A DNA stretch of 34,642 bases from a virus. The stretch's first letter is position 1. Every line of letters starts with the position of its first letter. Below are positions 8,716-29,049 of this stretch, one piece after another. The stretch lies in the IMG/VR virus record IMGVR_UViG_3300037133_000285, positions 1 through 34,642 of that record; one strand, written 5' to 3'. A program made the translations under genes and the position numbers. The notes beneath the pieces are model-generated. The model made no database searches, had not been told where the DNA came from, and saw only the letters and a program-made list of their open reading frames with translations.

Positions 8716-8740
8716 TTCACGTACGACAGAGACCTTACAC

Positions 8741-11144: not shown

Positions 11145-11291
11145 CCCAAGTTTAGTTCCACGCATGACGGATGCGCCGCTTGCCGGCCGCGTTCACTCGC
11201 ACCCGTCTGTCATGCTGCTGCGAAGCCCCGGCCTGCTGCCCTGGTTGTCCTGCACACGCCCCAAAAATCTGCACCACAAGGAAGTACCACA
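11145..11291 (+). other. Leader region before the major capsid gene
   Basis: A 147-base gap, one of the longest in the head module. A frame of 43 codons (from 11164, ending in an ATGA overlap with the capsid start) exists but has no ribosome binding site and proline-rich, non-family content. No convincing promoter hexamers are seen. It probably acts as the 5' leader of the capsid mRNA, which needs high expression. Confidence 0.3.
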
Positions 11292-12491
11292 ATGACCAAG
11301 CAGGAAATGTTGGACAAGCGCAGCAAGCTGATGTTCGACGCTCACGCGATCATGAGCCTCGCCGACGTAACCACGGAACAGCGCACCAATGTCGACAAGA
11401 TGTTGGCGGATGCCAACACGCTCAAGGGCGATGTTGAGCGGATGATCCAGTTCGAAAATGCCGAAGCGGAAATGCGCAGCGTTCCCGGCAAGGTGCCTCA
11501 GGGTGCAGTCAGTGCCGCAGTGGTTGAGCCCGAGACTCGCTCTTATGAGGATCGTCGGAAGGCCACCAGCACAGCTCTTCGCAGCTACATGAAGGGTGAG
11601 CGTTTCGAGAGTCGTGAACTGACCATCGCTGCTGATGGCGGAGTCATGATTCCTGTGGGCGTCACCGATCCGAAGATCGCGCAGAAGTCGGCTGGTAGCA
11701 TCCTCGATCTGGTCTATCGCTTCAAGTCAACGAGCGGTGAGTCGGTCAAGGTTCCGCTGCTCAACGATCTGGGCAACGGATTCATCCTGTCTTCGGCTTA
11801 CGCCGCAGGCACGACTGATCCGGCTGTGACCGGTGTCACGATTTCGATCGATGACATCCAGACCAACCCGATTCAGGTGATGAACTCCCTCGTCAATGAC
11901 GTGGAGTTCGATCTGATCGGCTACCTGGAGGCGGCGATCCAGACACGGTATCTCCGTTCCGCGTCAAGCTGGATCACCTTGGGCAACACCTCCAACGTGG
12001 GCGCGTTGTCCACCGGCTACAGCGGCATCACGGGTGCATCCGTAGGCGTCCTGAAGTATGCGGATTTCACGGGCCTTCTGGCTTCGCTGGACCCTGCATA
12101 CTACACCGATGCTGCGTTCCTCATGAGTCCGCAGACGCTTGCGAACTCCGTGTTGAACATCACGGACAGCAATGGCCGTCCGCTGTTCCTGCCGTTCGGA
12201 ACGGGTGGCGTGTCGGGCTTCACGGGAACGCTTTTTGGCTACCCCGTCAAGTTGAATCCGTATCAGCCTGCTGTCGCAACTGGCAACGTCGCTGTGCAGT
12301 TCGGATCGTTCGCCCAGGCATATACTTTCCGCGAAGTTCTCCCCGGTGTCGTGATCAAAAAGTCCTCCGATCGCTACATCGAGTTGAACGCTCTCGGCGT
12401 GTTCGCCTTCGCTCGTGTGGGTGGAGCTGTAACCAACCCAGGCGCGGCCGGCGGCACCACGCAGCCCGTTGTGTCCCTCACCGTCAAGTAG
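11292..12491 (+). CDS. Major capsid protein (HK97 fold)
   Basis: A 399-residue protein with a strong AAGGAAG ribosome binding site. The first 90 or so residues form the helical delta/scaffold part (LTAMLDKRSKL-type heptads, then DKMLADANTLKGDVERM), expected to be removed by the prohead protease near the segment PETRSYEDRRKA. The rest has the HK97 fold: GGVMIPVGVTDPKIAQK, a long E-loop-like segment, VTISIDDIQTNPIQVMNSLV, ESDLIGYLEAAIQTRY-like spine helix, ALSPQTLANSV-type P-loop and the terminal SDRYIELNALGVFAFARVGG. It assembles into hexamers and pentamers of the head. I cannot tell if it cross-links. Confidence 0.93.
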   Translation: MTKQEMLDKRSKLMFDAHAIMSLADVTTEQRTNVDKMLADANTLKGDVERMIQFENAEAEMRSVPGKVPQGAVSAAVVEPETRSYEDRRKATSTALRSYMKGERFESRELTIAADGGVMIPVGVTDPKIAQKSAGSILDLVYRFKSTSGESVKVPLLNDLGNGFILSSAYAAGTTDPAVTGVTISIDDIQTNPIQVMNSLVNDVEFDLIGYLEAAIQTRYLRSASSWITLGNTSNVGALSTGYSGITGASVGVLKYADFTGLLASLDPAYYTDAAFLMSPQTLANSVLNITDSNGRPLFLPFGTGGVSGFTGTLFGYPVKLNPYQPAVATGNVAVQFGSFAQAYTFREVLPGVVIKKSSDRYIELNALGVFAFARVGGAVTNPGAAGGTTQPVVSLTVK

Positions 12492-14419: not shown

Positions 14420-14835
14420 TGGTCACGTTAATCGAAGGCATTGTCGCGCTCCTGCTGACCAAGACTGCGATCACGGCCGTCATCGCGGGCGGCAACTCCA
14501 TCGGCCCGATCCCAACACCCGTTGAGGCATCCGCATTCCCCGCGATCACGTACCAGATGCCCAGTGACCACGACGAGATGACGCTCTCAGGGTCGAGTGG
14601 CGTTGGGCACTGTCGCATCTTGTTCTCCTGCCAGGCGGCATTCGGCCCCGGTAGCTATTTGACCGCGCACAAACTTGGTGTGGCTCTCAAGGCCGCCCTG
14701 AATGGCTACATGGGGTTTCTCCCCGGCGGACCACAAGTCTTCTTTGCTGACGTGGTCAATGTGACCGATCTCTATCAGTCAGACGCAGAGCTTTCCGTAA
14801 CCAACGTATCAGTGCTCTTCGACTACCAGAGCTGA
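14419..14835 (+). CDS. Tail terminator / DUF3168-like protein
   Basis: A 138-residue protein starting with LIEGIVALLLTKTAITAVIA, followed by IPTPVEASAFPAITYQMPSD and GVGHCRILFSCQAAFGPGSY. That is the pattern of the DUF3168 family, which caps the tail tube (lambda gpU-like role) in HK97-type phages. Its last segment, DAELSVTNVSVLFDYQS, is the expected final strand. The order gp10-like, DUF3168-like, tube protein is conserved in such phages and supports the call. Confidence 0.8.
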   Translation: MVTLIEGIVALLLTKTAITAVIAGGNSIGPIPTPVEASAFPAITYQMPSDHDEMTLSGSSGVGHCRILFSCQAAFGPGSYLTAHKLGVALKAALNGYMGFLPGGPQVFFADVVNVTDLYQSDAELSVTNVSVLFDYQS

Positions 14836-14866
14836 TCCCTAACCCCATCACCACGAGGTAACTCAA

Positions 14867-15400
14867 ATGTCTACAAAATCAGGTACGGGCGCAGGGTCTC
14901 TGCTCGTCATTGCCGCTGTCGCTGCAACTCTCGCCGCACCTTGCGCGGCACCAGCACAGCCACCCGTCGCATTCACTGTCGCACCGGCCGTCACACCGAC
15001 AGGCGTTGCCGTTCTGCAACTCAAGGAGTTCACGGTTCCCGAGCAGTCGTGGAGCTATGACGACATCACGAACACATCTTCACCGGCAGTCGGCGTCGGC
15101 GTGCTCAAGGAGTCGCTCGCTACCCTGGTCGATCCGGGTGAGTTCTCTGCGACAGGGATTTTCTTGCCCAGTGATCCTGGGATCGTGGCCCTACAGGTGG
15201 CCTTCCAGACTGGCCTGCCAAATGCCTTCCAGATTCAGCTCAAGCCGATCTCAGGACAGTCCACCAGCGGCAACGTGTATGCCTTCTCTGCTTACGTCGC
15301 CAAGAACCCTGTGCCGACCAACATCGACGCCGGCAAGGCAGTCACTGTGAAGATCAGCCTCAAACTGGATTCAGTGATGACCGTCCTGACAGGCAGCTAG
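14867..15400 (+). CDS. Major tail tube protein
   Basis: A 177-residue protein in the tube position, with GAGGTAAC before the ATG. The core, with VLQLKEFTVPEQSWSYDDITN, then SPAVGVGVLKESLATLVDPG and FSATGIFLPSDPGIVALQVA, is typical of siphophage tail tube proteins, which polymerise as hexamer rings around the tape measure. The last strand, GKAVTVKISLKLDSVMTVLTG, also fits. Oddly, residues 10-35 are very hydrophobic and Ala-rich (GSLLVIAAVAATLAAP), close to a signal-peptide look, which tube proteins do not need. Confidence 0.8.
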   Translation: MSTKSGTGAGSLLVIAAVAATLAAPCAAPAQPPVAFTVAPAVTPTGVAVLQLKEFTVPEQSWSYDDITNTSSPAVGVGVLKESLATLVDPGEFSATGIFLPSDPGIVALQVAFQTGLPNAFQIQLKPISGQSTSGNVYAFSAYVAKNPVPTNIDAGKAVTVKISLKLDSVMTVLTGS

Positions 15401-15462
15401 AAACACAACATGACGGGCGGGGGGGCACAGCCTCTGCCCGCATCACTTGAACAAAGGAAACC

Positions 15463-15819
15463 ATGACACCGAATCCAGTAAAGCCTTCGACGGAACTGAC
15501 CATCAACAAGGTCAAGTTCTCACTCCTGTTCGACTTTGAAGCAATCGCTACGGCCGAGTCACTCCTTGATCGCCCTCTCCTCACAGGCCTTCGTTCACGG
15601 GACTTCAACTCCCCCACGATCAATCTCGTCAGGGCCATGCTCTTCGCTTCGTTGCTACCTCTGAACCCCGAGACCACATACCGTGAGGCTTCGGCCCTCG
15701 TAACCCGCGTGAATCTAAAAGATGTCTGGGCCAAGGTACTGGCCTGCTGGTCCGCCGGCATGGCAGAACCTGATTCGGACGACGATGATGCCGTGGACCC
15801 CAAGACGGACCAGAGCTGA
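15463..15819 (+). CDS. Tail assembly chaperone, N-terminal part (gpG-like)
   Basis: A 118-residue protein between the tube protein and the tape measure module, where siphophages place a pair of frames joined by ribosomal frameshifting. It begins TELTINKVKFSLLFDFEAIA, has a helical middle (SPTINLVRAMLFASLLPL) and ends with an acidic tail (ACWSAGMAEPDSDDDDAVD) in the style of lambda gpG. AAAGGAAA lies just before the ATG. It holds the tape measure protein unfolded during tail assembly. Its stop lies inside the second frame at 15789-16145. Confidence 0.75.
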   Translation: MTPNPVKPSTELTINKVKFSLLFDFEAIATAESLLDRPLLTGLRSRDFNSPTINLVRAMLFASLLPLNPETTYREASALVTRVNLKDVWAKVLACWSAGMAEPDSDDDDAVDPKTDQS

Positions 15820-16145
15820 GCAACGCGCAGCGGTGGATGGGATTGTGGACGTCAGCGCGTATCGACCTTCACCTGTCTGACGCTGAATTCTGGTCCCTCA
15901 CGCCGCGACAATTCTCTGCACTCCTGCGCCGCCACAAGCAGGGCCTCGACCGCAGCAACTACCTGGTCGGAATGCTCGCCTCAGTCACGGCCAATTTCAG
16001 TATGTGCCGTCCCAAAGAACCGCTCTCTGCCGGCGACTTCATGCTTGGCCGGAAGGTCAAAGAGCTTTCCGACGACGACATCGCGGAAGACTTCGCGGCC
16101 AAGTTCGCTCTCATCGCCGTACGTCCCGGCGTCCCGATACTGTGA
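15789..16145 (+). CDS. Tail assembly chaperone, frameshift extension (gpT-like)
   Basis: The -1 frame relative to the gpG-like gene is open from 15789, inside that gene, to 16145. From residue 15 or so it reads LSNAQRWMGLWTSARIDLHL, then AEFWSLTPRQFSALLRRHKQ, a pattern typical of the T part of tail chaperones. Independent starts at 15837 have no ribosome binding site, supporting production as a G-T fusion. The gap 16146-16164 holds only the next ribosome binding site. The alternative is re-initiation at the ATG 15837. Confidence 0.65.
   Translation, partial: CRGPQDGPELSNAQRWMGLWTSARIDLHLSDAEFWSLTPRQFSALLRRHKQGLDRSNYLVGMLASVTANFSMCRPKEPLSAGDFMLGRKVKELSDDDIAEDFAAKFALIAVRPGVPIL
15798..15804 (+). 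promoter_or_regulatory. Possible -1 frameshift site
   Basis: The sequence CCCCAAG lies in the only stretch (15789-15819) where both frames are open. In the gpG frame it reads C CCC AAG; a one-base backward slip lets the proline tRNA re-pair fully with CCC. It lacks the full X XXY YYZ pattern, so the site is a proposal. No obvious strong stem follows. Confidence 0.35.
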
Positions 16146-16164
16146 TCCCCTCTGGAGTCTCACA

Positions 16165-17706
16165 ATGCACAAGTTCCTCCGGTCCGCTCTGCTGGCCATC
16201 AGCTCACTCGCGGTCGCCGCGGCATCGTTCGCTACGACTCCAGTCGGATACGTGATGATGAGCGCAAGCCATCTTCAGGACTCGACAGGAACGGTTGTTG
16301 CAAATGCGACGATCTCGTTCACTCCTGTCACCAATGCAGGACTCCCAATCAGCTACAAGGTCAACGGACTCGGCCAGGCCGTCGACCGCGTGGTCACCAC
16401 TCTCGTCACCAGCGGTGGGTTCAGCATTCAGCTTGCGGACGTGTCACTCACGCAGCCGTCGAACGTCTGTTATGCCACGACAGTGCGGGACAACGTAACC
16501 GGGAAGCAATTGCTCGGACCGGGCTACAACTGCGTTCAGCCATCGGGCTCGGGCGCGGCCATCACCGGCCTTTATACCTGGTGTACAGCAGCCACACTCA
16601 CCGTAGGCGGCTCCTGCAATTTCGATTTGTGGTCGCCGGTTATTGCAGCCAACATCGTCATGAACCCAGCCGGCCCAGCCGGACCAACTGGCGCAACTGG
16701 CCCGGCCGGAAGCGGACTGAGCGGATTGACCGGCGATGTGAATGCGGGACCGGGCGGCGGCTCTCAAATAGCCACTCTGCCGAACGTGAACTCCACTCCA
16801 GGTGCATGTGGTGATGTGAGTGACATCTGTGCGATCACAACCAACGCCAAGGGCCTGGTCACCAACGAAGCTGCGCATCCGCTCAATGTGGGAAGCGCAC
16901 TCGCATATCAACCGACGCCTCCTATCCCCGGTCAATTTATCGTGCTCTATCCCACCTCCGTCGCGAACACAGTCGGCGGGATGGGCAGTTACTGCGGCGG
17001 CACATTGCCCACCGGCTCTATCGCGTCTAGTGTCAGTTCCGCATTCATCACGGTGAACGGCTGCGGCAACCCCTTCAATTCGAATTACTGGGGTGCGGCC
17101 TGGTCGGGCTTCGTCCTGCCCCCGTCGATCTCTTCCGTGAGCGTCACGGCTGTGTATGCCTTTGGCCTCACGAGCTACTGGCCGTACTGGCCGGGGTCGG
17201 TTGGTAGAACGGTCCAGTGCTTAAGTGATCACGACACTGGCGAAAACATCATACCCGGCGGCGGCTTATCCACATGGTCACTCCGCCAGACAACCGCTCT
17301 GCTGAACTCGACGGTCGCAGGGGACATAGGGTCGATTACCTGCTCGGCATTGATGGGGTATAGCAATTCGCCACCGGACACGGTCAACCTGGACATAGCT
17401 TCTGTCGGCATCATCGTTTACTACACCGGAACGGCTCTCCCGTCCCCAACGGCCGTATCCGTGCTGCCTCCGCTTTCTTACAACCCAGCTCTGAACCAAC
17501 TCTCGCTCGATCCTCAAGGCTACAGCCTGCCCCCGATGACCTATGCCCTCCTGCAGGCCACTTATGCCTGTGAGAACGGATCGCTCGAAGGCTGGCGCGG
17601 CGCAGTGACTGACTCAACTGTCGCCACATGGGGAAGCCCCATTTCAGGCGGCGGAGCGAATCACGTCCCTGCTTACTGCAACGGCGGCTCCTGGATCGTC
17701 GACTAA
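16165..17706 (+). CDS. Secreted-type tail fiber-like protein with short Gly-X-Y segment
   Basis: A 513-residue protein from the ATG at 16165 (TGGAG upstream); an upstream in-frame start would add a meaningless 40-residue basic stretch. It begins with a textbook Sec signal peptide ([20 protein letters not shown], cut near SFA-TT). The next 150 residues, [18 protein letters not shown] ... [10 protein letters not shown] ... [10 protein letters not shown], closely match the N-domain of the following gene. A short collagen-like piece ([15 protein letters not shown]) and a Gly/Ser-rich beta C-domain of about 330 residues follow. Cysteine pairs suit an oxidising compartment. It may be an exported adhesin, a side fiber or a lysogenic-conversion product; function unknown. 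Confidence 0.75.
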
Positions 17707-17735
17707 CTCACTCGCGTCACTCCCGAGGAAATCCC

Positions 17736-20700
17736 ATGAAGAAGTTCTTTGCAGCTATCGCACTCGCGTGTCTATCGATCCCCTTGTTCGCCACTGTGCC
17801 CTTGGGCTATGTCCAGTTGAGCGGAGCGAATCTTCAGGACTCGACCGGCACCCTGGTGACGAACGCGACGATCTACTTCGCTCCGACTGACAACTCGGGT
17901 TCACCGATCAGCTATCGCGCCAACGGATCTGGACAAGTCATCGACAGCGCCGTCACTGCGCAAGTCACAACCGGCGCATTCACTCTTCAGCTTGCAGACA
18001 CGATGCTGACCTCTCCGCAGCACGTATGTTTCAACGTCACAGTGAAATCGAACATCAACGGCAAGCAACTTTTGGGCGGAGGTTACGCCTGCGTGCAGCC
18101 AGCGGGCTCGGGATCAGTGGTTGCCGGCGGTGATGTGTTTTGTACCGCGGCCACTCTCACGTCCGGAGGTACCTGCAACCTCGATTTGTACACGCCTGCA
18201 CTGCCCACGCTGTCAGTTACACAAACCGGCCCAGTGGGACCAGCGGGTCCGGCCGGCGCTGCTGGTGTTGCAGGTCCGGCCACCATCGCGGTGGGGACAA
18301 CTTCGACCGGCTCACCGGGTACATCCGCATCAGTGAACAACGTAGGCACATCAAGCGCCATGGTGCTTGACTTCACGATTCCAACCGGTGCAACGGGATC
18401 AACAGGCAGCGCAGGCGCGACGGGTCCAACTGGACCAGCCGGCTCAACAGGCGTTGCCGGCGTAGCTGGATCAACCGGACCCACGGGTCCGACCGGGCTC
18501 ACCGGTCCCACAGGCAGTACCGGCCCAACGGGCTCAGCAGGGGCCACAGGCTCTACCGGACCAACAGGCAGCACAGGGGCAACCGGAACAGCCGGATCAG
18601 CAGCAACGATCTCCGTAGGCTCTACAACCACGCTCTCACCAGGCGCATCCGCCACGGCATCAAACACAGGCAGCAGCAGCGCAGCAGTTCTCGCGTTTGG
18701 CATCCCTGCCGGGGCCACAGGTAGCACGGGCGCAACTGGTACCACGGGTGCGACCGGCTCGACCGGGGCTGCTGGTCCAACTGGATCAACAGGCGCGACT
18801 GGTCCAACCGGACCCACAGGATCAACCGGCCCTTCAGGCCCGAATTCAGTTTCAACTTCAACCACGGAGACAGGGCTCACCGGAGTCATCAAGGGTGCAG
18901 CCGGCGTGCTCGCTCCTGCTGTCGCGGCGGACATCACCACGCTGATCGGTTCCACTCAATATGACGCCTTCGGCACTGCAACCACCGATCTCGCATCGGC
19001 GAATGCGACAGCGGCCAACGCTTCCAACCTCACCAGCGGCACAGTAGCCGCAGCCCGCCTTCCAGCGTTCACCGGTGATATGACAACCACGGCCGGGTCC
19101 GTCGCCACCACTGTCAAAGGACTCAACGGCACGCTGCTCTCTTCGCTGGCGACCTGCCTGCTCAAGAACACGACGACCACCGGCGTTCCTGTGTGCGGCG
19201 TCTCTGGAACTGACTACGCTCTACCCAATGCGAACACGACAGGCTCGGCTGGCTCCGTACCCTTCACAGGATTGACGGGAACCCCTACCACCTGGAATCA
19301 GAGCACGACTGGCAACGCCGCAAGCGCAACCAAAGCATTCATCACGGCTCAAACGACAGGATCCTTCTTCCCGGTGATGGTGTCTGCAGACGGAGCGAAT
19401 GAGTCACTCGGCGATGACAGCGGTCTCAGCTACAACGCATCCACGAATGTGTTGACCGCCTCCGGTTTCGTAGGCGCTGGCACAGGATTGACGGGAACAG
19501 CATCTGCCCTCAGCATCGGCGGCAACGCTGCGACAGCAACAACGGCAACCGGCGCTACCTCATTCACCGGCTCGCTGGCTGGGGATGTGACCGGAACTCA
19601 AAGTGCAACCGTGGTCGGTAAGCTGGCCGGCATTGCGCTCCCCACCCTAGCTGCGTCCAGTGGCCTTCTATACGACACCGCCGGCGTTCTTTCTTTGCCG
19701 GCCACCCTACCGGCGGCTGCCCAACCCGCTCACACCGGCGACATGACCAACACGGCCGGATCGCTGACGACGACTGTGAAGGGCATCAACGGCACTCTGC
19801 TTTCATCGCTCGCAACCGGCATTTTGAAGAGCACTACAACGACAGGTGTGCCCTCGATCGCTGTGAGCGGAACGGATTACGCGCTGCCCAACGCGAACAC
19901 CACAGGCACCGCTGCGAATGTGACGGGAACGTCGAACTCGACACTGACAACGCTGTCGGCCTTGAGCCTGCCCTCTACGCAGATCACCGGCCTGGGAACG
20001 GGCGCGACAGCGACGATTGCCAATTACGAGACCACATCGGCAGCGGCTTTGCTGGCCCCAATTGCGTCTCCTACATTCACCGGACTCGTGACAGCACCCT
20101 TCCTTACTGCGGGGAGTTTCTACCTCACGGGCAACTTCACTGAGATTGCTTCCGCTCTGAACTTCAAGTACTCAGCATCGGTGGTCACGACTGGTGCCGG
20201 GTACTTCGACGCGATAAGCAATGTGGGTGGAACACCCGGCGTGGTCATTATCCGCGGCGGTGACTCAGGACTCATCTACACCAGCTACCTGACCTTCAGC
20301 TCGACCGGCGGCCTGTTCGGTGTCGGCATCACAGCGCCGAACATCACCTTCTCCGGATGCTCTACGGCCGGAGTGGCCACCACCACGAGTGGTGGCGTCA
20401 TCGGCTGCTCGAACGCACCAACCATCGCCGTCACCAACATGACAGGCACAGGCGCATTCGCAACGACCGGCAATGCGGGCAACGTCACGGGGACAAGCAA
20501 TTCAACCCTGACGACCCTCTCCGCTCTTGCACTCCCTCAATCACAGGTGACGGGGCTTGCCGCATCTCTCGCGCTGCTGGCTCCGCTCGCATCACCAGCG
20601 ATCACCGGTACAGCGTCAGCAGTCAACCTCAATGTCAGCGGCAAGGTCGGCATCAACATGACCGGTCCCACATCACCCCTTGAAGTGCAGGCTACGGGCA

Positions 20701-21566
20701 ACTCGTCAATTCCGTTTTACATACAGGACTCGACTGCGAGCTTCCCGCTGCTTCAGTTTCGCCAGGACTCGTCAGGAGTCGGCCAGTTTCAGATGCAGAA
20801 CGGCACGGGCACCACCGTGCAGGTTGGCACTGGTTCTGGTGGCACCACCTTCTTTGACTCCGGCGCAGATTTCCTCATTAACACGACGACAGATTGCGGA
20901 AAGGCGCTGTGCGTTACGGGCAATGCGGCAATCACCGGCGCAGTCACCACAGGGTTGGCCACATTCAAGGCCGCGGCCGTGAGCACGAATGCATGGGCTG
21001 CTGTCGATTCCGCCAGCAGCAACGTCCTCGCCCAGTTGCACGAAGACAGTGCTCACAACGGCGAGTTCTCCTTAGCCAACTCGACCCCCACAACAGTGCT
21101 ACAGTTTGACGCCAACGTCACCGGTGCTACGTTTATCAATCTTCCGACAACATTCGGCGGTATAACGCTGTGCCCCGTCTCGATCTGCAACCTCGGTGCC
21201 GAAATCACGAACAGTATCGCAGGCACCGGCACCGCAACCTTCGCAGCCGGCGCCGGCGCGGGCGGGACTCCCGGCTCTCCAACATGCACCACCTCGCATA
21301 TCTGCGATTCGACAGGCGGCACAGTATCCCTGACGAACGGAACAACCCCGCCCACGACCGGTGTGTTGCTCACGTTCACCACAGGCGTGACGCGTAACAA
21401 TCAACCGGAGTGCACCTCGCAGGTACGCCTCGCGGTGTCTCCTTTTACGCTCATCGATTCCGCCTGCTCAACCACAACCACAACGGCGGTCGTGAACCTG
21501 ACAGGCACAGCACCGACCGCAAGCGTTGCCTACACAATCCAGGTCCAGATCGCCCACGGCAACTAG
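17736..21566 (+). CDS. Large secreted-type collagen-like / tail fiber-like protein
   Basis: A 1276-residue protein starting at the ATG 17736, with GAGGAAA upstream. It has a signal peptide ([19 protein letters not shown]), then an N-domain (residues about 20-160) paralogous to the previous gene. Collagen-like G-X-T/P repeats (residues 165-368) are broken by two copies of a fiber module of the type ATIxVGxT...IPxGATG. The long remainder has tail-fiber style repeats: DMTx[37 protein letters not shown]. The last part, with [10 protein letters not shown] and [14 protein letters not shown], is beta-rich. The fiber repeats suggest a cell-surface or virion fiber. The signal peptide is unexpected for a virion protein made in the cytoplasm. 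Confidence 0.8.
18228..18842 (+). repeat. Collagen-like Gly-X-Y repeat block with two fiber modules
   Basis: Triplet repeats GGN-ACN/CCN-GGN encode G-X-T/P/A units in three blocks, separated by two 123-base modules at 18276-18398 and 18600-18722. The modules share the protein pattern ATIxVG...PGxSAxxxNxGxSSA-VL-F-IPxGATG, which is common in phage tail fibers. Triple-helix (trimer) formation is expected for such repeats. Confidence 0.8.
19068..19907 (+). repeat. Two diverged 177-base repeats in the fiber-like gene
   Basis: The segments 19068-19244 and 19731-19907 encode matching 59-residue blocks (TGDMTxTAGS, [16 protein letters not shown], [13 protein letters not shown]). The second copy is followed at 19914-19994 by an 81-base unit that recurs at 20478-20558 ([16 protein letters not shown]). 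They share amino acids more than bases, so the duplication is old. Confidence 0.75.
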
Positions 21567-21577
21567 GAGACACACCG

Positions 21578-22054
21578 ATGAAGAAGTTCCTGCTACTCGC
21601 AGTACTGATGTGCGCGACGATGGCCCATGCGCACATCCTGCTCACCACGCCCTACAGCATCACCGGGCCAACCGGGATCGCCATCAGTTCAGTTCCGGCC
21701 GCGACGGCCACCAGTAAGACGTATGACTGGGTAGCGAACATCGCTTGCATCAGTTATAGCTTCGGCACAGTGACTTCATCGAGCGGGATCGACTCGGCCT
21801 TCGTGGTAACTCCCGGCGCTCCCGTCGTGATGAACTGCCTCAACCTCGGGAACGGCTCATGGGTTGCGACCTCCAATACCGGCCAAGGAATCACCATTCT
21901 GAACTCAGGTATCCTGACCGGCGCGTCATTGACCGGCGCAATCACCGTCTACACCGGCCCGCTCACCGCTCTGCGCGATGCGGCTGACTACTTCGCCATG
22001 GGTACATTCTTGCCTGGCACACAGCCTGCACTCTGGGGCGCTGGCGACCTGTAG
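21578..22054 (+). CDS. Small secreted-type protein
   Basis: A 158-residue protein with TAGGAGA upstream of the ATG at 21578. It begins with a clear signal peptide (MKKFLLLAVLMCATMAHA, cut before HILL). The mature part is beta-rich with two or three cysteines (NIACISYSFG and MNCLNLGNGS), suggesting a small Ig-like fold. No family is recognised. The end (LRDAADYFAMGTFLPGTQPA) is more polar. It starts 11 bases after the large fiber-like gene, so it is in the same operon, and the transcript may end at the terminator that follows. It may act as partner or chaperone of the two large secreted-type proteins. Confidence 0.65.
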   Translation: MKKFLLLAVLMCATMAHAHILLTTPYSITGPTGIAISSVPAATATSKTYDWVANIACISYSFGTVTSSSGIDSAFVVTPGAPVVMNCLNLGNGSWVATSNTGQGITILNSGILTGASLTGAITVYTGPLTALRDAADYFAMGTFLPGTQPALWGAGDL

Positions 22055-22080
22055 AGTCTCACCTTCCCCGTGCAACATCG

Positions 22081-22110
22081 AGGGCGGCCGTCAAGGTCGC
22101 CCTTTCTATT
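22081..22110 (+). terminator. Rho-independent terminator before the tape measure gene
   Basis: AGGGCGGCC at 22081-22089 pairs with GGTCGCCCT at 22095-22103 (one G-T pair) around the loop GTCAA, followed by TTCTATT. It closes the block of three signal-peptide genes. The T-run is imperfect, so partial read-through into the tape measure gene is likely. Confidence 0.6.
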
Positions 22111-22120
22111 GGAGTAACTC

Positions 22121-24730
22121 ATGGCCTCAAGAAAAGTAGCATCGGCATACGTTGACCTGCAGCTTCAGATCGCCCAGTTCAAGGCTGCGATTGGTGAGGC
22201 CGGCGGTCTCACGAAGAGGTTCAGTGCCGAAATGCGCGAGGAAATGGAGCACTCACGCGAGAGCGTGAAGCTGCTCTCTGAAGAGTTGGGCCTGGGAGTA
22301 CCACGCGGATTGCAGCGGATCATTGCGGGCCTTCCCGGTGTCACCACGGCAATGAACCTGGCCTTTGATGCGGTTGTTGTGTTCGCTCTGATCAAGACCG
22401 TTTATGAAGTCGGCGAGAAGGTTGTCGAGTTTGTTCACAAGACCGAAGAGGCAGCCAAAAAGCATGACGAGGCGTGGAAGTCGGTAGACCGCTCGCTTCA
22501 GTCCAACATCAGATCGCTGATCGTTCAGGACGACAAGATTCAGGCGTCCATCGACAAGTTGCAGCATAAGCCGCACAACGCCATGAAGGACGCCATCGAC
22601 GAGGCAACGAAGGCCGCTGGCGAACTGAGCGACAAGCTCGACGAGGACATCAAAAAGATACAAATGAACCTGCAAGGGCAGGAAGCGGGAATCTTCCAGC
22701 GGGCACTCCTGAACAAGGCCGATAGCTCGGCAGAGAATCCGATCAGTGCCGAAGCAATTCTGGGCCGGATGCAAAGCACGCTCGATGACATCCAGACAAA
22801 GCGCGATGCCGGCATCATCCAGAACTGGGATGCTGACGGACAGGTGACAGGTGCTCTCAGGAATGCAAAGGGTGAGCTTGAAGCATCGCAGAAGGTGTTC
22901 GCGGATCTTCAGGTAGCTCACGACACCCCGTCGCGTATCGGGGTGCCCCTGGGCTTAGGTGCTCCCGATCAAGCGAAGAACATTCAAGGTGTGGAAGATG
23001 CTCTGAACGAAGTAACCAAGATGAACAGGGCGCACGATTACACATTGAAGGTTGGCAGGGACGCCGGCGAGGAGAAGGACCTCAGTGAAAAGGACCGCCT
23101 AAGCAAGGAAGCGAAAGAAGCTGCTGCACGGGCGAAGGAGGCAGCCGACAAGCTCTATGCTGCACACCTGAAGACCGTCGCTGCTGCGGACGCTGCATTC
23201 AATGACAACCCGGCCGCTATCGCCGCCAACCCCAAGTGGTTGGAGACGCAGAAGCGTCGTGAAGGCGACTCCGAACCTCAACAGATGAAGTCGTGGCTCG
23301 ATAGCCAGGTGGCGCTGAATGGCTCTGACAGGGCCAAGGGGATGTCACAGGCGCAGGCCGACAGGATCACCAACACGTTGCTCCCCGAGCTAGTGAAGCA
23401 GGGGCAGGAGCGCAACACGGCGGATGACCAGAGGATCTCTGAGCAGACGGCGAATGCAGAAAAGGAATACAACGCCGGTGAGACTCGTCTCGGTGTGGAT
23501 TCGCGGAAGAGTTTCACCGAGGCGATGAAGACCCTGTCAGAATCGGCGGACAAGGCTGCGCTCTCTCTGACCCAGGCTGCCCTGGAGTATGAGACGGCGA
23601 TTGACAAATGGCAGTTGTCAGTTGGTGCGATGACGGAGGCGGAGTATCAGAAACGCCGCATGGAGACCATCTCCAGCACCGCGAACGTGGAAAAGTTCGA
23701 TCTCCAGCACAAGTACGATGAGCAGGTCCAAGCCGCCAACGACAAGCGCGACAAGACACAAACCGCAGACCAGACCCTCTATGACAGCATGAAGGACAAG
23801 TACGCGCAGCAGTACGGCGGCTCCGCACTGACGTACTTGGTCGATACGCTGTATAAGAAGCTCGCGGCTGACTTCGACACGGCACAGGATCGGGATCGCC
23901 AGGAGCAGAACGAGGCCGCGTTGTCCCAAGACAGGGGATCGCAAACGCTGGACGTCAAAACGATGACGGCTACGTTCGAGGCCCTCATGGCTGCGCACGA
24001 GTCCACCGCCATCGGTGCAATCGACAAAGTGTTCGACGAGTTCGAAGCCCGCTCCAATGATCTCGGCAAGCAAGTTCACGAAGTCCTCACCGAAGCGATC
24101 AACGGCGTCAACGATGCCCTGGTCAAGATGATGACTGAGCAGGACCACCGCGGCGTCTGGAAGGACATGGGCAAGTCCCTGTTCACCGGTGTGGCCAAAA
24201 CAGGGCTACAGGATGCCGAAGGCTTCGGCATGAAGGCGCTGGGCCTGGGAACCAAAGTTCAACACGTCATCGTAGACAACCACGACCAGATTGGCATCAG
24301 TAGCGGTAACCCCCTGGGTTCGAAGAGTACCGGACTTCTCGGCTGGGCGAACAACAACAACTTCATGAGTTCGCTGTTCGGCGGCAAGCTCTTCGGTGCG
24401 GGCAGCATCTTCGGCGGCGGTATGGCCAACGGTGGCGTGCTGTCTCCCGGCGATTTCTATATGACGGGTGAGCAAGGTCCGGAACTGTTGCAGGTTGGAT
24501 CAACCTCGAAGATCAATAATGCTCGGGACACATCCGCGATGCTTTCTACCGGCAGTGGATCTGGTTCACCCGTCCACAACTGGAACATCGATGCACGCGG
24601 CGCGACCGACCCGGCCGCAACCTACCAGGCCGCGCAGAGGGCCATTATGGCTGCTGCCCCGCATATTGTGGCGGCAAGCAACGCGGCACAGAAGGACCAG
24701 TCGCGCAGGCGTCCAAGCTCACGTTCATAA
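22121..24730 (+). CDS. Tape measure protein
   Basis: An 869-residue protein with TTGGAG upstream. Long coiled-coil stretches with many Ala, Lys, Glu, Asp and Gln cover residues 10-750. An early hydrophobic region (LAFDAVVVFALIKTVYEVGE) is the membrane-passing candidate. The end has the typical glycine-rich GGMANGGVLSPGDFYMTGEQ segment and IDARGATDPAATYQAAQRA. At about 1.5 angstrom per residue, the tail would be roughly 130 nm. It sets tail length and is held by the chaperone pair encoded about 6 kb upstream, an unusual distance because the three signal-peptide genes lie between. Confidence 0.9.
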   Translation: MASRKVASAYVDLQLQIAQFKAAIGEAGGLTKRFSAEMREEMEHSRESVKLLSEELGLGVPRGLQRIIAGLPGVTTAMNLAFDAVVVFALIKTVYEVGEKVVEFVHKTEEAAKKHDEAWKSVDRSLQSNIRSLIVQDDKIQASIDKLQHKPHNAMKDAIDEATKAAGELSDKLDEDIKKIQMNLQGQEAGIFQRALLNKADSSAENPISAEAILGRMQSTLDDIQTKRDAGIIQNWDADGQVTGALRNAKGELEASQKVFADLQVAHDTPSRIGVPLGLGAPDQAKNIQGVEDALNEVTKMNRAHDYTLKVGRDAGEEKDLSEKDRLSKEAKEAAARAKEAADKLYAAHLKTVAAADAAFNDNPAAIAANPKWLETQKRREGDSEPQQMKSWLDSQVALNGSDRAKGMSQAQADRITNTLLPELVKQGQERNTADDQRISEQTANAEKEYNAGETRLGVDSRKSFTEAMKTLSESADKAALSLTQAALEYETAIDKWQLSVGAMTEAEYQKRRMETISSTANVEKFDLQHKYDEQVQAANDKRDKTQTADQTLYDSMKDKYAQQYGGSALTYLVDTLYKKLAADFDTAQDRDRQEQNEAALSQDRGSQTLDVKTMTATFEALMAAHESTAIGAIDKVFDEFEARSNDLGKQVHEVLTEAINGVNDALVKMMTEQDHRGVWKDMGKSLFTGVAKTGLQDAEGFGMKALGLGTKVQHVIVDNHDQIGISSGNPLGSKSTGLLGWANNNNFMSSLFGGKLFGAGSIFGGGMANGGVLSPGDFYMTGEQGPELLQVGSTSKINNARDTSAMLSTGSGSGSPVHNWNIDARGATDPAATYQAAQRAIMAAAPHIVAASNAAQKDQSRRRPSSRS

Positions 24731-24777
24731 CTCCCGCTTCTAACTCGACCCACCACGCATAGCACCACGGAGTCCCC

Positions 24778-25431
24778 ATGTCTTCAATCATCACGCTCCC
24801 AAGCGGCAGCACCTTCACGCTTGTCCCCATCCCGCAGTACCCCGGCCTGAATCAACTGTCGGTCACGATGGAAGACGCTGTGGCCAATGTCGGGTCGCCA
24901 TTCGTACCCGGCATCAATCAGACGCAGGCGTGGCCGGGTGCGGACGCCTGGTCGCTGAGCTTCACACTCCCGAAGATGAATCGCTGGGTTGCTTCTCCCT
25001 GGCGCGGGTTCATGGCTGAGTTGAGAGGCATCAGCAATGTTTTTCAAATTGGTGATCCCTACTGTGCTACTCCGCTCGGGCAGGCTGATGGGGCGCCCGT
25101 GTGCGCCACATCCGGAGTGAATAACCTCGCATCGGCTACTTCGCTTGTCACGAGCGGGTGGACGCCTCTCGTGTTCGGGCAGCTTCTCAGTGGTGATTAT
25201 CTACAGGTCGGTTATCGGCTTCATGTTGTCTGTGAGGACGTGAACTCCGATGCCAGCGGCAACGCAACGATTGCGATCTGGCCTTCGCTTCGCGAGTCGC
25301 CTCCGAACCTCACCGTAATCAACCTGATCAACTGCGTCGGGCTCTTCAAGCTCAAGGACAACTCGCGTAGCTGGCATAACGATTTCTCACGGCTGGCTCA
25401 GATCAGCTTCACCGCGATGGAAGCGAGGTAA
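24778..25431 (+). CDS. Tail tip protein (minor tail, distal-tail-like)
   Basis: A 217-residue protein directly after the tape measure gene, in the place of lambda gpM or the GTA distal tail gene. Its beta-rich start IITLPSGSTFTLVPIPQYPG, the segment WPGADAWSLSFTLPKMNRWV and the end SWHNDFSRLAQISFTAMEAR fit a distal tail or minor tail protein of the gene set that follows. Two cysteine-containing loops lie in the middle. It probably forms the ring connecting tube and hub. I cannot name a precise family. Confidence 0.65.
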   Translation: MSSIITLPSGSTFTLVPIPQYPGLNQLSVTMEDAVANVGSPFVPGINQTQAWPGADAWSLSFTLPKMNRWVASPWRGFMAELRGISNVFQIGDPYCATPLGQADGAPVCATSGVNNLASATSLVTSGWTPLVFGQLLSGDYLQVGYRLHVVCEDVNSDASGNATIAIWPSLRESPPNLTVINLINCVGLFKLKDNSRSWHNDFSRLAQISFTAMEAR

Positions 25432-25433
25432 CC

Positions 25434-25991
25434 ATGCCCAGAGATATTTCCACTCCCATGGTTGCCCCGATGCTGTCGAACTACATCCGGCCGTGCTTCA
25501 TGGCCATCCTCACATTTCACTCTGAGACCAAGTACGTCTGGACCGGTCCTTGCGATCTCATCTACGCGGGAAACACTTACAAGGGCGTGGGAGACTTCGG
25601 CAAGTTGGCTGCTGTCGTCGAGGGAACAGACGTTCAAGCATACGGGTCCTCCATCTCACTCAGCGGCATTGATCCTGCTCTGTTGGCCGAGTGCCTAGCG
25701 GATATTCAACTGGGTGCGCCGGCAACGATCTTCTTTGCGCTGCTGGATTCGAACGGCAGCATCTTCGGCACGCCGTACCCACTGTTTGTCGGCACGGTGG
25801 ATAAGCCGACGATCCAGATGGGCACGCAGGCGATGACCATCGCACTGGCCCTGGAGAACAAGCTGTCGAACCTGTCCCGCGCCAACATGCGCAGATATAC
25901 GAACGCCGATCAGCAACTCTACTACCCCGGCGACACCTTCTTTCAGAGCGTCGAGAGCCTGAACGACCAGGCCCTTCTCTGGCTCGCATAA
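25434..25991 (+). CDS. Tail tip protein, lambda gpL / DUF2163-like
   Basis: A 185-residue protein two bases after its neighbour. The pattern YVWTGPCDLIYAGNTYKGVG, GTDVQAYGSSISLSGID and FVGTVDKPTIQMGTQAMTIA is what tail-tip proteins of the DUF2163/gpL-like type show, where 'TGxGDLxYxGxxYxG' is the hallmark. The end LRYTNADQQLY-like part (RRYTNADQQLYYPGDTFFQS) also occurs in phages with gpJ-like hubs. It stands between the distal tail and the NlpC/P60-type gene, the same order as in gene transfer agents and lambda. Confidence 0.7.
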   Translation: MPRDISTPMVAPMLSNYIRPCFMAILTFHSETKYVWTGPCDLIYAGNTYKGVGDFGKLAAVVEGTDVQAYGSSISLSGIDPALLAECLADIQLGAPATIFFALLDSNGSIFGTPYPLFVGTVDKPTIQMGTQAMTIALALENKLSNLSRANMRRYTNADQQLYYPGDTFFQSVESLNDQALLWLA

Positions 25992-26005: not shown

Positions 26006-26452
26006 ATGTCACTCACTCGCACTCCTCACTGGGCGACCAGAGAGCTGCATCAGTTCGTCATCGACCGCACGCACACCAAGTTCGCCTGGGGCGTGCATGA
26101 CTGTGCTCTCATGGCTGCGGACGCGATCAAGAGCTTCACCGGTGTCGACATAGCCTCTGACTTCCGCGGCCTCTACACGGACGAAGCCAGCGCGAAGGCC
26201 GCGATCGAGACGGTCACCGGCATCAAGAACGGGACCGTCGAAGACGCCGCTGCCTACTGTGCCGCAAAGCATGGCCTGGTGGAACTGACTCATCCCCTCA
26301 TGGCCCAGCGTGGCGATCTGGTGGTCCTCATGGACTCCGGCCGTGTCATTGCAGGCATCGTGCACCTGAGCGGCAAACACATCGTCGCTGCGGGTGACGC
26401 AGGGCTCAAGCGAATGGACATCATGACCATCAAGAGAGCGTGGAGACTATGA
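26006..26452 (+). CDS. DUF6950 / NlpC-P60-like tail protein
   Basis: A 148-residue protein. FAWGVHDCALMAADAIKSFT carries the conserved HDC with the likely catalytic Cys. RGDLVVLMDSG and the later VHLSGKHIVAAGDAGLKRM give the His part, and the end is a Trp-containing IKRAW. This matches the small DUF6950-type papain-like proteins encoded before the tail hub (lambda gpK role), which may cut peptidoglycan during DNA entry or help hub assembly. Its stop overlaps the start of the hub gene by an ATGA. Confidence 0.8.
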   Translation: MSLTRTPHWATRELHQFVIDRTHTKFAWGVHDCALMAADAIKSFTGVDIASDFRGLYTDEASAKAAIETVTGIKNGTVEDAAAYCAAKHGLVELTHPLMAQRGDLVVLMDSGRVIAGIVHLSGKHIVAAGDAGLKRMDIMTIKRAWRL

Positions 26453-29049
26453 GCAAGGCAATCGACGGGGCGATCATTCTGGGTGTTGCAGGCGCTATGT
26501 TCCTGGCGATGGACTTCGCCACAGGCGGACTCGGTGCACTGGCCAACACGCCTCTGTTCTTCGATCTGATGCTGGCCGTGGCCGGCGGCGGCGTCAGCAT
26601 GGAAGGCGGAGCTATCGCCGAAGCCCTCACCTCGAATCGGGGCATGAACATTTCCACGAGGACTGCTGCGGGACTGCGCCAGATCATCTACGGTCAGCAG
26701 CGTGTCGGCGGGACCATCGTCTACAAATCGACAACCGGCGCGGGTGGCTCTGGCGGCAACTACGTCATGAACTACATCATCCCCGTCGCTACGCACACAA
26801 TCGACAGCTACATCAATATCTACCTTGACGGCCGGCAACTCTTCTTTGCTCAGAATGGCAACTCCGCGAACATCGGCTGCGGCCATGTTTCTACCCCGCC
26901 TACCACCGTGGTCACCACATCTGGTGGAGTCGTCACCGGCATCACTGCGACCGGTGGGTCTGGCTTCTCGAATGTGAAAGCTACTCGGTACCGCGTGTTC
27001 ATTTCAGGCGGCGGCGGATCTGGCGCGGAAGCATGGGCAACGAACGCAGGCGCCGGAGGCTACGGAACAACCTTTGTTCCTGGTGCATGGACCGTCACCA
27101 TGGTCACCGGTGGCAGTGGCTACACGTCCACACCGCAAGCGGACTTGCAAGGCAAGTACGTGTTCGGTGGATCGGCGGCGGCGGATGAGCAGGACCCAAC
27201 CCAGGTGAACTACGGCCTCGGATACGGCATCGGACCTGGCGGCGTCCACTACAACTTTGCAAACAAGGCTTTCTGTGAAGTGCGCTTCGGCGATCAGCCG
27301 GCCGGCGACTACATGGCGTCCCTGACTGCGAACGACTCGCAGTACCCCACCACAGCACGCGGCGGCGGCATTGCGTATCTGTATTTGAACGTCGGGTACG
27401 ACACGACTCAGTTTCCTGGTGAGCCGGAAATCCGCGTCACGGTGAATGGTAAGAACACCATCTGGGACCCGCGCACTTCGACTTACGGCTTCTCGACGAA
27501 CTGGGCGTTGCAGGTTGCTGACGTGATCACCGATCCCATCTTCGGCCTGGGCGATCCGTCCGTTAATCAGGCACAACTCATCGCGAGTGCCAACGTCTGC
27601 GATCAGATGGTTCTGACGTCACAGGGCAACGAGTTCAACTTCTCCCAGCACATTCATTACGACACTTCGACGAGTCCCGGCGATGCGCTCGCAATGATGA
27701 TGCCGGCCGCAGCGGGCAAGCTCACTCGCGTCGGTGGCCAGTGGAACATCGTCCCCGCTTACTGGCAGGGTGTCAGCTTCGCTTTCGATGAGTCCACTCT
27801 GACCGATGCCATCTCCTGGAGTCCGAACCGCAGCTTCAAGGACCTTGTGAACTGCGTCAACGGAACCTACACCGCGCCGAACTACCCCTACGCCCTCACG
27901 GGCGATTTGTACGACAAAGCGGGCTGGTACTACGGCGTGACGAACAATCTCTGGCCCTATGCATGGCAGCCAACATCGTTTCCACAGTACGCGGCAGATG
28001 TCTTGCACGGGTATTCATCGAATCAGTTCCTTGCAGAGGACGGCGGCATCATGCTCCCAATGGAGCTTACGTTGCGGGCAGTCATCAGCGTAGTGCAGGC
28101 CCAGCGCGTGGCGAAGATCAACATGATGCGCAATCGCCAGCAGGGCACGGGAACATTTCCCATGAGCCTCGCGGCCTGGCAGGCACAGCCCATCGACGTG
28201 ATGAACTTCACAATGGGCGCGATGGGATGGAGCGGCAAGTATCTGGAGTTTGACAAAATCAAGATGGTCGCTGAGCCCGTGAAGGGGGCGGGCGGCGAGG
28301 ATGGTGCGCTTGCGCTCTCCTGCTCGGTTAGCGTGCAGGAAACAGACCCGTCAGTCTACGAATGGAGCATCACTGAGGAGCTAACGCCCGAAGACATTAC
28401 CTCGATGGCGATGCAGATGCCGAACACCCCGGCCCCGCCATCATCCATGACGGTGACCAGCTCGGCCGGCACAGCTCTGATCGGTGCGGACGGCAACGTT
28501 ACACCGCGTGCTCTCGTGTCATGGACCGCACCTGCTGACAACACCGTTACGCAGATTCAAGTTCAGTATCAGGCCGTGGGTGCGACGACCTGGCTGAGCG
28601 CCGGCATCGTCGATGTAAGCCTGTTCCAGACATTCGTCACCGGAGTCGTGGCGGGCTCTGCATACAACTTCCAGATCCGTTCGCTGCGTCCCAGCGGAAC
28701 ATTCAGCACCTGGGTCACGGCCTCGGACACCATGAGCATCACGCTGTCGATCTCAGCTACCTCAGGTGTGATCGTTGCACCTTCGGGCACACTGACCACC
28801 GCGGTCACCGGAGCGACCGCGGATATTGTCGTCGCTCCCTTCACGGCGACGGTCGGCAGTCTGTCTGTTGCCTGCTTGACGGCCGGCGCGGTCACCATCC
28901 CGAGCCTCGTGCAGAGCACGTTGTACTACGTCTACTACACTGATGTGACGTTCTCCGGTGGCGCGATTACGCCAGTGGCCACGATCCATACATCGGACTT
29001 CCTCGGCAAGCTCGGCTACTTTTTGATCGGCTCGATCACCACTGCGTAA
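26449..29049 (+). CDS. Tail hub / host-specificity protein (gpJ-like)
   Basis: An 866-residue protein from the ATG at 26449 (ATGA overlap); a GTG three codons earlier is less likely. The start is hydrophobic with glycine-rich, membrane-interacting character (IDGAIILGVAGAMFLAMDFA), then LRQIIYGQQRVGGTIVYKST, the conserved gpJ-like entry. The middle carries beta domains with the segment VADVITDPIFGLG typical of hubs. Near residues 660-770 is a fibronectin type III domain (PPSSMTVTSSAG ... YNFQIRSLRPSGTFSTW). The end is beta-rich. It closes the tail tip and probably binds the receptor. Confidence 0.85.
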   Translation: MSKAIDGAIILGVAGAMFLAMDFATGGLGALANTPLFFDLMLAVAGGGVSMEGGAIAEALTSNRGMNISTRTAAGLRQIIYGQQRVGGTIVYKSTTGAGGSGGNYVMNYIIPVATHTIDSYINIYLDGRQLFFAQNGNSANIGCGHVSTPPTTVVTTSGGVVTGITATGGSGFSNVKATRYRVFISGGGGSGAEAWATNAGAGGYGTTFVPGAWTVTMVTGGSGYTSTPQADLQGKYVFGGSAAADEQDPTQVNYGLGYGIGPGGVHYNFANKAFCEVRFGDQPAGDYMASLTANDSQYPTTARGGGIAYLYLNVGYDTTQFPGEPEIRVTVNGKNTIWDPRTSTYGFSTNWALQVADVITDPIFGLGDPSVNQAQLIASANVCDQMVLTSQGNEFNFSQHIHYDTSTSPGDALAMMMPAAAGKLTRVGGQWNIVPAYWQGVSFAFDESTLTDAISWSPNRSFKDLVNCVNGTYTAPNYPYALTGDLYDKAGWYYGVTNNLWPYAWQPTSFPQYAADVLHGYSSNQFLAEDGGIMLPMELTLRAVISVVQAQRVAKINMMRNRQQGTGTFPMSLAAWQAQPIDVMNFTMGAMGWSGKYLEFDKIKMVAEPVKGAGGEDGALALSCSVSVQETDPSVYEWSITEELTPEDITSMAMQMPNTPAPPSSMTVTSSAGTALIGADGNVTPRALVSWTAPADNTVTQIQVQYQAVGATTWLSAGIVDVSLFQTFVTGVVAGSAYNFQIRSLRPSGTFSTWVTASDTMSITLSISATSGVIVAPSGTLTTAVTGATADIVVAPFTATVGSLSVACLTAGAVTIPSLVQSTLYYVYYTDVTFSGGAITPVATIHTSDFLGKLGYFLIGSITTA

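Follow-up and report, generated by a model that had tools for sequence, protein, structure and literature searches.

The window, that is, the whole 34,642-nucleotide stretch of viral DNA that was analysed, carries in its tail operon two adjacent genes, P0001 and P0002, whose products belong to a family that is, judging from sequence comparison, very probably exported via Sec. We propose, with a probability of roughly 0.45, that P0001 and P0002 are Sec-exported fibres that dock on virions at lysis. The features that bear on this proposal are as follows.

15463..15819, + strand: tail assembly chaperone-like ORF 1 (PHROG 2115 tail protein, E 2.2e-7)
15837..16145, + strand: tail assembly chaperone-like ORF 2 (Phage_TAC_6, E 3.7e-4, below the Pfam cut-off; Phage_tail_T, E 0.006)
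16165..17706, + strand: P0001, predicted exported fibre-like protein, 513 aa (ORF call; RBS-like CTGGAG 5′)
16165..16233, + strand: predicted signal peptide of P0001, 23 codons (rule and family comparison)
16234..16644, + strand: N-terminal fibre domain of P0001 (four cysteines conserved among exported relatives)
17736..21566, + strand: P0002, predicted exported fibre-like protein, 1276 aa (RBS-like GAGGAA 5′)
17736..17792, + strand: predicted signal peptide of P0002, 19 codons (rule and family comparison)
17793..18200, + strand: N-terminal fibre domain of P0002 (56% identity to the P0001 domain)
18225..18843, + strand: region with the collagen-like G-X-Y stretches of P0002 (Pfam Collagen, PHROG)
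21578..22054, + strand: P0003, predicted small exported protein, 158 aa (RBS-like TAGGAGA 5′)
22080..22104, + strand: RNA hairpin between P0003 and the tape measure gene (z -2.2; 5 of 200 shuffles fold equally well)
22121..24730, + strand: putative tape measure protein, assigned from position and length
24778..25431, + strand: distal tail protein (PHROG 1302, E 1.4e-32)
26440..29049, + strand: J-like central tail tip protein (PHROG 5616 tail fiber, E 1.4e-50)
33377-34642: integrase (PHROG 1, E 7e-35)

The three ORFs have the starts, lengths and upstream RBS-like sites that the original prediction gave them. They follow one another on the same strand within the tail operon, with gaps of 19, 29 and 11 bases 5′ of P0001, P0002 and P0003, respectively. 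The G-X-Y repeats of P0002 score above the Pfam cut-off (PF01391, 57 bits against 27.2, E 1.7e-15), the best stretch being residues 326-369, and P0002 also has a repeat-rich match to PHROG 6320 tail fiber (E 1.4e-26), with the PHROG stretches running from residue 163. Profile searches gave neither a Pfam nor a PHROG match for P0001, and no Collagen match either. P0003 has no relative among the family loci collected for comparison, and its AF2 model is uninformative (pLDDT 35); its probable role is that of an exported accessory to the cassette. The tape measure ORF had no match in the PHROG search, and its homologues stand in the same gene order in relatives. Hairpins like the one at 22080..22104 occur in loci L005 and L129, and none was seen in the tested stretches of L124, L131 and L132; the promoter/terminator scan does not include the hairpin among its terminator-like sites.

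P0001 and P0002 have in common a domain of about 135 aa, directly after the predicted cleavage site. The original prediction had called for a search for homologues and their synteny, and relatives were indeed found, in Acidobacteriaceae prophages and virus contigs, the whole-genome samples being from Acidobacteriota only; one of the prophages, L014, belongs to Silvibacterium bohemicum S15. The six genomes first matched carry the domain once in five cases and twice in one; an origin from a host gene for an acidobacterial surface adhesin was rejected, as all six of these first loci show phage genes. Profile A1 found nine virus contigs carrying the domain, and a terminase search yielded only two virus contigs; a tblastn search of 50,697 phage records with one exported and one leaderless domain found nothing. 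After removal of 18 of the 89 HMM-positive rows (10 duplicates and 8 that were truncated, broken or of unclear start), there are 71 distinct intact copies, 53 with a signal peptide and 18 starting at the domain itself, a ratio that is not a frequency because exported rows were the basis of profile A2 and leaderless rows that of A4. Manual calls were made for L069, with its start shifted to MNRLKWV, and for L129, which was taken as exported. For the remote copies in L060 and L075, the sequence in view has transposition genes close by and no recognised tail gene.

The AF2 model of the N-terminal domain (pLDDT 89.4) is closest to the N-terminal domains of phage tail fibres, as far as a predicted structure can tell. 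Its best structural match is the tail fibre of cyanophage A-1(L), with a Z of 9.5; the Ur-lambda tail fibre (PDB 9e7m) follows at Z 7.9, where a Z below 8 may reflect a common arrangement. Phage tail or neck entries fill four of the top five VIA rows, and a Foldseek search returned no PDB match at E <= 0.001. The domain is not assigned to PF08400 (phage_tail_N), for which profile comparison gave no significant match, the one hit among 32 domains having an E of 0.044.

The rule used for signal peptides demands a positive n-region, an uncharged hydrophobic 9-mer and an A-X-A-like site, with cleavage sites read by eye. It calls all three window proteins, in agreement with the N-termini originally described, and also the window's major tail protein at 14867, likely a false positive. 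In a control of 16 other phage families, 18 of 392 proteins were called (major tail protein 6/27, J-like 9/29, tL 2/31, TAC1 1/29, the rest 0), and the rule was still satisfied by 29% of exported copies when residues 2-30 were shuffled. Given these control and shuffle rates, calls on single proteins are weak, and it is therefore the comparative evidence that carries weight. The type I architecture is conserved among relatives of the P0001/P0002 domain, since 51 of the 53 putatively exported copies and none of the 18 leaderless copies satisfy the rule, and the n-, h- and c-region features are kept even in very divergent exported copies. A median of 19 residues precedes the domain in the exported form and 0 in the leaderless form, so that the signal peptide appears as a clean addition.

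The cysteines follow the same division. An even, non-zero number is present in 49 of the 53 exported copies vs 3 of the 18 leaderless ones, with means of 3.45 and 1.17, and at least one pair at homologous columns, which were chosen from the exported rows, is found in 42/53 and 0/18, respectively. Behind the domain, the median cysteine percentage is 1.48 in the exported form (n = 49) and 0.76 in the leaderless form (n = 15; p 0.005). At the level of sequence, the even counts support real export to an oxidising compartment. In the window, the cysteine content of P0001-P0003 is not significantly above that of the other proteins (32/1947 vs 86/7482, p 0.086) or of the structural proteins only (p 0.126), and therefore the family-wide pattern alone is used here.

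Both forms occupy the same places in the operon: the slot between tape measure and Dit has 7 exported and 10 leaderless copies, the slot behind J has 8 and 3, and the slot between chaperone and tape measure has 11 and 0. GDSL_2 matches occur in the heads of both. Because of these common slots and heads and the fibre-like domain model, the family looks like tail fibres rerouted through Sec. None of the nine two-copy loci mixes the forms, which are separated by only one to three changes on the trees; AU tests did not reject one clade (p 0.50 and 0.16; the second tree omits 15 remote rows). Since the switch needs just one to three events, the cysteine correlation is barely replicated, and phylogenetically independent contrasts fall short of significance, with one pair on supported branches and three on all branches. 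The idea that a long J replaces a missing fibre was not used, as J reaches about 2000 aa in two of eight domain-free regions and not in the others.

We suggest that a tail-fibre family with an N-terminal fold of the virion-anchor type acquired or retained a Sec signal peptide that can be cleaved. Late expression of the tail operon would yield P0001 and P0002, which would then be exported, disulfide-bonded and kept outside the cytoplasm. Most likely, they would serve as fibres that bind receptors or attack surfaces, and would encounter completed particles once holin and endolysin open the cell; the N-terminal domain would then dock the fibre to the particle, as it presumably does in the cytoplasm in the leaderless relatives. 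Tentatively, we extend this to a tailed phage lineage whose virions receive parts from both sides of the inner membrane, with Sec-exported disulfide fibres docking at lysis and the family toggling between routes by gain or loss of the signal peptide together with cysteines; the unrelated exported spikes of phages Tunturi 1 and 2 and of L156, L160 and L161 may be further cases in phages of Acidobacteriota.

The same proteins could instead be non-virion fibres that, late in infection and with companions such as P0003, act in or through the envelope to alter or mask the host surface, for example, to prevent superinfection or the re-adsorption of progeny; the tail-fibre domain would then have been co-opted. 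We regard this as possible though doubtful. Exported companions are present in L008, L016 (288 aa), L069 and L144, those of L008 being a 333-aa protein in which chitobiase-type repeats were recognised by eye, a 363-aa protein judged phosphoesterase-like in the same way and one of 174 aa. The lambda tail region encodes an exported-type protein, lom. A further precedent is P1312 ORF22, for which the available text of its authors suggests prevention of superinfection (PMC4569894). Against such a role, inspection of the fibres by eye revealed no membrane anchor, the leaderless members in the same slots could not perform it, and no two-copy locus keeps one copy of each form. The exported genes that L008 has besides its fibre, lectin-like and phosphoesterase-like, resemble envelope-acting factors more than fibres and run counter to the fibre reading.

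It is very unlikely that the hydrophobic N-termini are non-working export signals and that the proteins stay cytoplasmic and enter virions uncleaved. The calls on major tail and J-like proteins do show such N-termini on cytoplasmic virion proteins, and cysteine content in the window is not significantly raised overall, but the family is bimodal, even cysteine numbers together with paired columns are confined to the signal-peptide form, and the n-, h- and c-regions persist in very divergent copies. It is improbable that the genes form a moron or lysogenic-conversion cassette through which the prophage would give its lysogen an adhesin, even though the window has an integrase and the hairpin closes the cassette. 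This reading fared less well because a crude scan with a sigma-70 consensus only found no promoter-like site in 14800-25500 (2.6 expected), the genes follow the same-strand order of the tail operon, and similar proteins occur in Tunturi 1 and 2, which are lytic in the available part of their paper, where integrase/recombinase genes are named only in Tunturi 3-5. The short intergenic gaps also argue against it, as does the movement of homologous genes within the tail module, where they are not fixed as an added unit. Of the original interpretation, export and fibre character are supported, given the signal peptides, paired cysteines, collagen repeats and fibre-like model. It had also set the proteins apart from the virion; a place in the virion deserves serious consideration, given that leaderless relatives use the same slots and given the tail-fibre fold.

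The usual assumption, to our knowledge, is that a tailed-phage virion is put together entirely in the cytoplasm. Matched exported and leaderless fibres in the same operon slot are a natural comparison for testing cytoplasm-only assembly, and the cultured Tunturi 1 and 2 would permit a direct test. It can thus be asked in viruses of soil Acidobacteriaceae whether part of a tailed virus is supplied from outside the inner membrane. Should the fibres be absent from virions, phages of one of the main bacterial groups in soil would instead have in them an exported weapon or shield that is widespread and that annotation misses by naming such genes tail fibres.

Among known systems, the long tail fibres of T4 are added late, and the HK97 gp15 moron is an extra tail-operon gene acting at the envelope, although as a small membrane protein and not a fibre. 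Searches of the open-licence PMC literature found no description of exported tail fibres as such, and a literature search for post-lysis fibre attachment found nothing. Lambda Stf/orf-401, with its PF08400-type N-domain (PDB 9e7m), resembles the domain model (92 of 94 residues aligned, rmsd 2.8) and is likewise a fibre gene of the tail region, with a weak, non-significant profile match (E 0.06); unlike P0001 and P0002, orf-401 starts MAVKISGVLKDGTG, without a signal peptide. The N-domain of the A-1(L) fibre (PDB 8kec, chain residues 1-105) aligns from its residue 1 over 95 residues, with an rmsd of 2.1 and 12% identity. Lambda lom, between J and orf-401, has a signal-peptide-like N-terminus and is annotated to the outer host membrane; it differs from P0001 and P0002 in its 206 aa, in not being fibre-like and in that no leaderless counterpart was seen. 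P1312 ORF22, with 1096 aa and a predicted signal peptide, is like the window fibres but has a metallophosphatase and a carbohydrate-binding module, with no collagen or fibre domain named in the available text (PMC4569894). Tunturi 1 and 2 are cultured Acidobacteriaceae phages, with the soil isolate Tunturiibacter psychrotolerans X5P2 as host, but podoviruses, and the A3 domain profile had no match in their searched stretches. Their gp12, gp13, gp14 and gp17 are nevertheless large, cysteine-rich proteins of the tail/spike region with signal-peptide-like N-termini, like the window fibres. Of 11 CDS examined in the tail region of Tunturi 1, 4 satisfy the rule for export and are rich in cysteine; they have 83 cysteines among 3968 aa, and nine other structural CDS have 28 among 5303 aa.

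The window is a virus record of 34,642 bases from IMG/VR. Its genes are ordered as in a lambda-like siphophage, and its large terminase shares no more than 38% identity with the best 15 of the 2,536 phage records matched. The order is as follows.

terminase, portal, protease, major head protein, neck genes, major tail protein
two chaperone-like ORFs
16165-17706, + strand: P0001, 513 aa
17736-21566, + strand: P0002, 1276 aa
21578-22054, + strand: P0003, 158 aa
presumed tape measure, Dit, two small tail proteins, J-like tip
integrase, on the strand opposite to the structural genes

The original prediction of three ORFs with signal-peptide-like starts was correct in coordinates and lengths. In each of the three N-termini, a short positive stretch leads into a hydrophobic core and then an A-X-A-like site. 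The N-terminal regions of P0001 and P0002 are 56% identical. Behind this region, P0002 has collagen-like repeats (Pfam PF01391, E 2e-15) and fibre-type repeats (PHROG 6320, E 1e-26, a repeat-rich match). P0003 has no match in Pfam, PHROG or the related loci compared. The overall cysteine content of the three is not significantly raised over that of the other window proteins (p 0.086). A stable hairpin at 22080-22104 separates the fibre cassette from the tape measure; its stem is nearly identical in two related loci, L005 and L129, and it is possibly a transcript processing or attenuation site. Elsewhere in the window, a ParB-like gene and then a Mom-like DNA modification gene (PHROG 1384, E 2.5e-51) lie immediately ahead of the terminase (5347-6598), and a cold-shock domain-DUF3825 fusion protein is encoded close to the late end of the prophage (30488-31702).

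A profile of the P0001 and P0002 N-terminal domains, about 135 aa long, found nine virus contigs, and a wider profile found six prophage loci, all with Acidobacteriaceae or Acidobacteriales titles. In the whole-genome search of the family of Silvibacterium, the domain occurs in 32 of 398 genomes with profile A2, built from exported rows, and in 37 of 398 with profile A3. A phylum sample gave 5 of 396 genomes, all five also in the Silvibacterium-family sample. A profile from rows lacking a leader gave 25 further virus loci, part of them already known. Described phages gave no tblastn match to the domain. The loci used hold 89 HMM-positive ORFs, from which 18 were excluded (10 duplicates and 8 truncated, broken or with an unclear start), leaving 71 copies. 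The fibre gene is broken or frame-split in three prophages (L062, ~9784-10121; L072, ~12192; L083, ~11232), and in L069 (8966-12652) a glycine- and cysteine-rich insertion of ~100 residues splits the domain.

The copies take two forms. A signal-peptide-like stretch of 14-32 residues (median 19) precedes the domain in 53 of the 71, here called exported; in the 18 leaderless copies the start codon is 0-4 residues from the domain. A stop codon lies a few codons upstream of five leaderless ORFs (L016, L018, L066, L068 and L070), so a hidden signal peptide is impossible there. A rule combining a positive n-region, an uncharged hydrophobic 9-mer and an A-X-A-like site is satisfied by 51/53 exported copies, 0/18 leaderless copies and 18/392 other phage proteins, and shuffled exported N-termini pass in 29%. 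The hydrophobic N-termini of the window's major tail protein (14867-15400) and its relatives, and of J-like proteins, deceive a simple rule of this kind.

The two forms also differ in their cysteines. The number in the mature domain is even and non-zero in 49/53 exported versus 3/18 leaderless copies (two of the 18 have none), with means of 3.45 versus 1.17 per domain. Of four homologous column pairs, one or more holds both cysteines in 42/53 exported and 0/18 leaderless copies; the Fisher p of 1e-9 is too small, because the exported rows served to choose the columns and the rows share ancestry instead of being independent. Behind the domain, the median cysteine content of complete proteins is 1.48% (exported, n=49) versus 0.76% (leaderless, n=15; p 0.005). 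On trees built with the cysteine columns omitted, the exported/leaderless state requires two changes (43 rows) or three (56 rows); a single change occurs in 0% of 200 bootstrap trees for the 56 rows, and a one-clade constraint is not rejected (AU p 0.50 and 0.16). The correlation of cysteines with export therefore rests on one to three switches. On the best tree, the members of the C3/C4 pair changed 6 and 6 times and those of C5/C6 5 and 6 times. C1 and C2 track each other poorly since leaderless rows retain C2 alone (C2 without C1 in 12/18, C1 alone in one); both are present in the short exported forms of L127 and L133.

A recognised tail gene adjoins 48 of the 71 copies on the same strand, distributed as follows.

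Slots of copies in the tail operon (exported / leaderless)
chaperone-tape measure: 11 / 0
tape measure-Dit: 7 / 10
behind J: 8 / 3
between tL and tK: 1 / 0
single flank in view: 8 further copies

For the other 23, no tail marker is in view; head genes occur at L019 and L071, other tail families at L080, and transposition genes near L060 and L075. The copies in these last two (7477-10218 and 9846-12458) are remote, with excisionase-like and Mu-like transposition genes as neighbours and no recognised tail gene adjoining. Nine loci have two intact copies, and none mixes the forms, although tandem copies share descent. The tL tail gene is found in 20 of 300 genomes, 13 of them also on the A2 and A3 domain lists. 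In one region from the seven others, L156, the tape measure-Dit slot is occupied by a different protein of 899 aa whose N-terminus is signal-peptide-like; its relatives in L160 and L161 likewise have such N-termini. This second large type lies in structural regions (L156, 13612-10916, - strand; L160, 6405-8993 and 9753-11822; L161, 7911-9845). Between tape measure and Dit, L008 (5924-12622) carries a run of four or five genes whose products begin with signal-peptide-like stretches; by eye, one of these is a phosphoesterase-like protein of 363 aa and another, of 333 aa, has chitobiase-type repeats. The tail modules of L153 and L154, without the domain, encode a J-like protein of ~2000 aa, twice the usual size.

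Pfam was run on ten proteins picked by eye; a D-x-x-H-P-like C-terminus or a GDSL-like motif was the reason for choosing nine of them. Four exported proteins (L005, L065, L147 and L060) match GDSL_2 at E 2e-6 to 8e-8, and one of these passes the curated cut-off. Five leaderless proteins (L016, L066, L118, L123 and L139) match it too, and all of them pass, so the kinds of head overlap between the forms. The tenth, from L004, matches beta-propeller families. An AF2 model from 32 aligned domains (pLDDT 89.4, pTM 0.83) is mostly strands. Plain Foldseek gave four viral rows, no PDB row at E <= 0.001, and dioxygenases as top rows. The best of 999 realigned chains belongs to the tail fibre of cyanophage A-1(L), which aligns over 95 residues starting at chain residue 1 (Z 9.5, rmsd 2.1). 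Next is chain Ta of the Ur-lambda tail tip, the start of lambda orf-401 (Z 7.9, 92/94 residues). The top chains also include the tail tip of mycobacteriophage Bxb1 (Z 7.8) and, both at Z 7.0, a lipase and the neck region of phage XM1. Profile searches reach the lambda chain of the Ur-lambda tail tip at E 0.06 and 0.11, and one of 32 domain rows matches PF08400 (E 0.044). The modelled domain thus reads as having the fold of tail-fibre N-domains; membership of PF08400 is not claimed.

Export of these fibre-like proteins is the best-supported step, and we put its probability at about 0.9. The exported fibre would be a virion fibre that docks at lysis, a proposal that we hold at slightly under even odds. 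Because slots, domain and heads are common to both forms, and the forms exclude each other within loci, one job may be done by two routes, with docking at lysis when the fibre is exported. The exported fibres might instead act on the envelope, as the exported companion proteins in L008 and other loci suggest, and P1312 ORF22 and lambda lom offer precedents; we hold this role to be somewhat less likely than docking.

The exported copies can be set beside proteins of known phages. Unlike the exported copies, lambda orf-401 has no signal peptide; its neighbour lom has a signal-peptide-like N-terminus, as they do. Among CDS chosen by hand from annotation, such starts occur in 4/11 and 4/10 tail-region CDS of Tunturi 1 and Tunturi 2, with annotations including tail spike, tail fiber, pectin lyase and virion structural protein, in 2/17 CDS of Tunturi 4 and in 0/14 within the first 50 kb of Tunturi 3. 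In Tunturi 1, these CDS hold 83 Cys in 3968 aa versus 28 Cys in 5303 aa in nine other structural CDS. The published account reports lytic cycles for Tunturi 1 and 2 and names integrase/recombinase genes in Tunturi 3-5 only, and its main text yielded no proteomics terms (PMC11924767). Tunturi 1 and 2 are cultured podoviruses of Tunturiibacter. The domain profile had no match in the Tunturi stretches searched, and the likeness is therefore one of kind and not of kinship.
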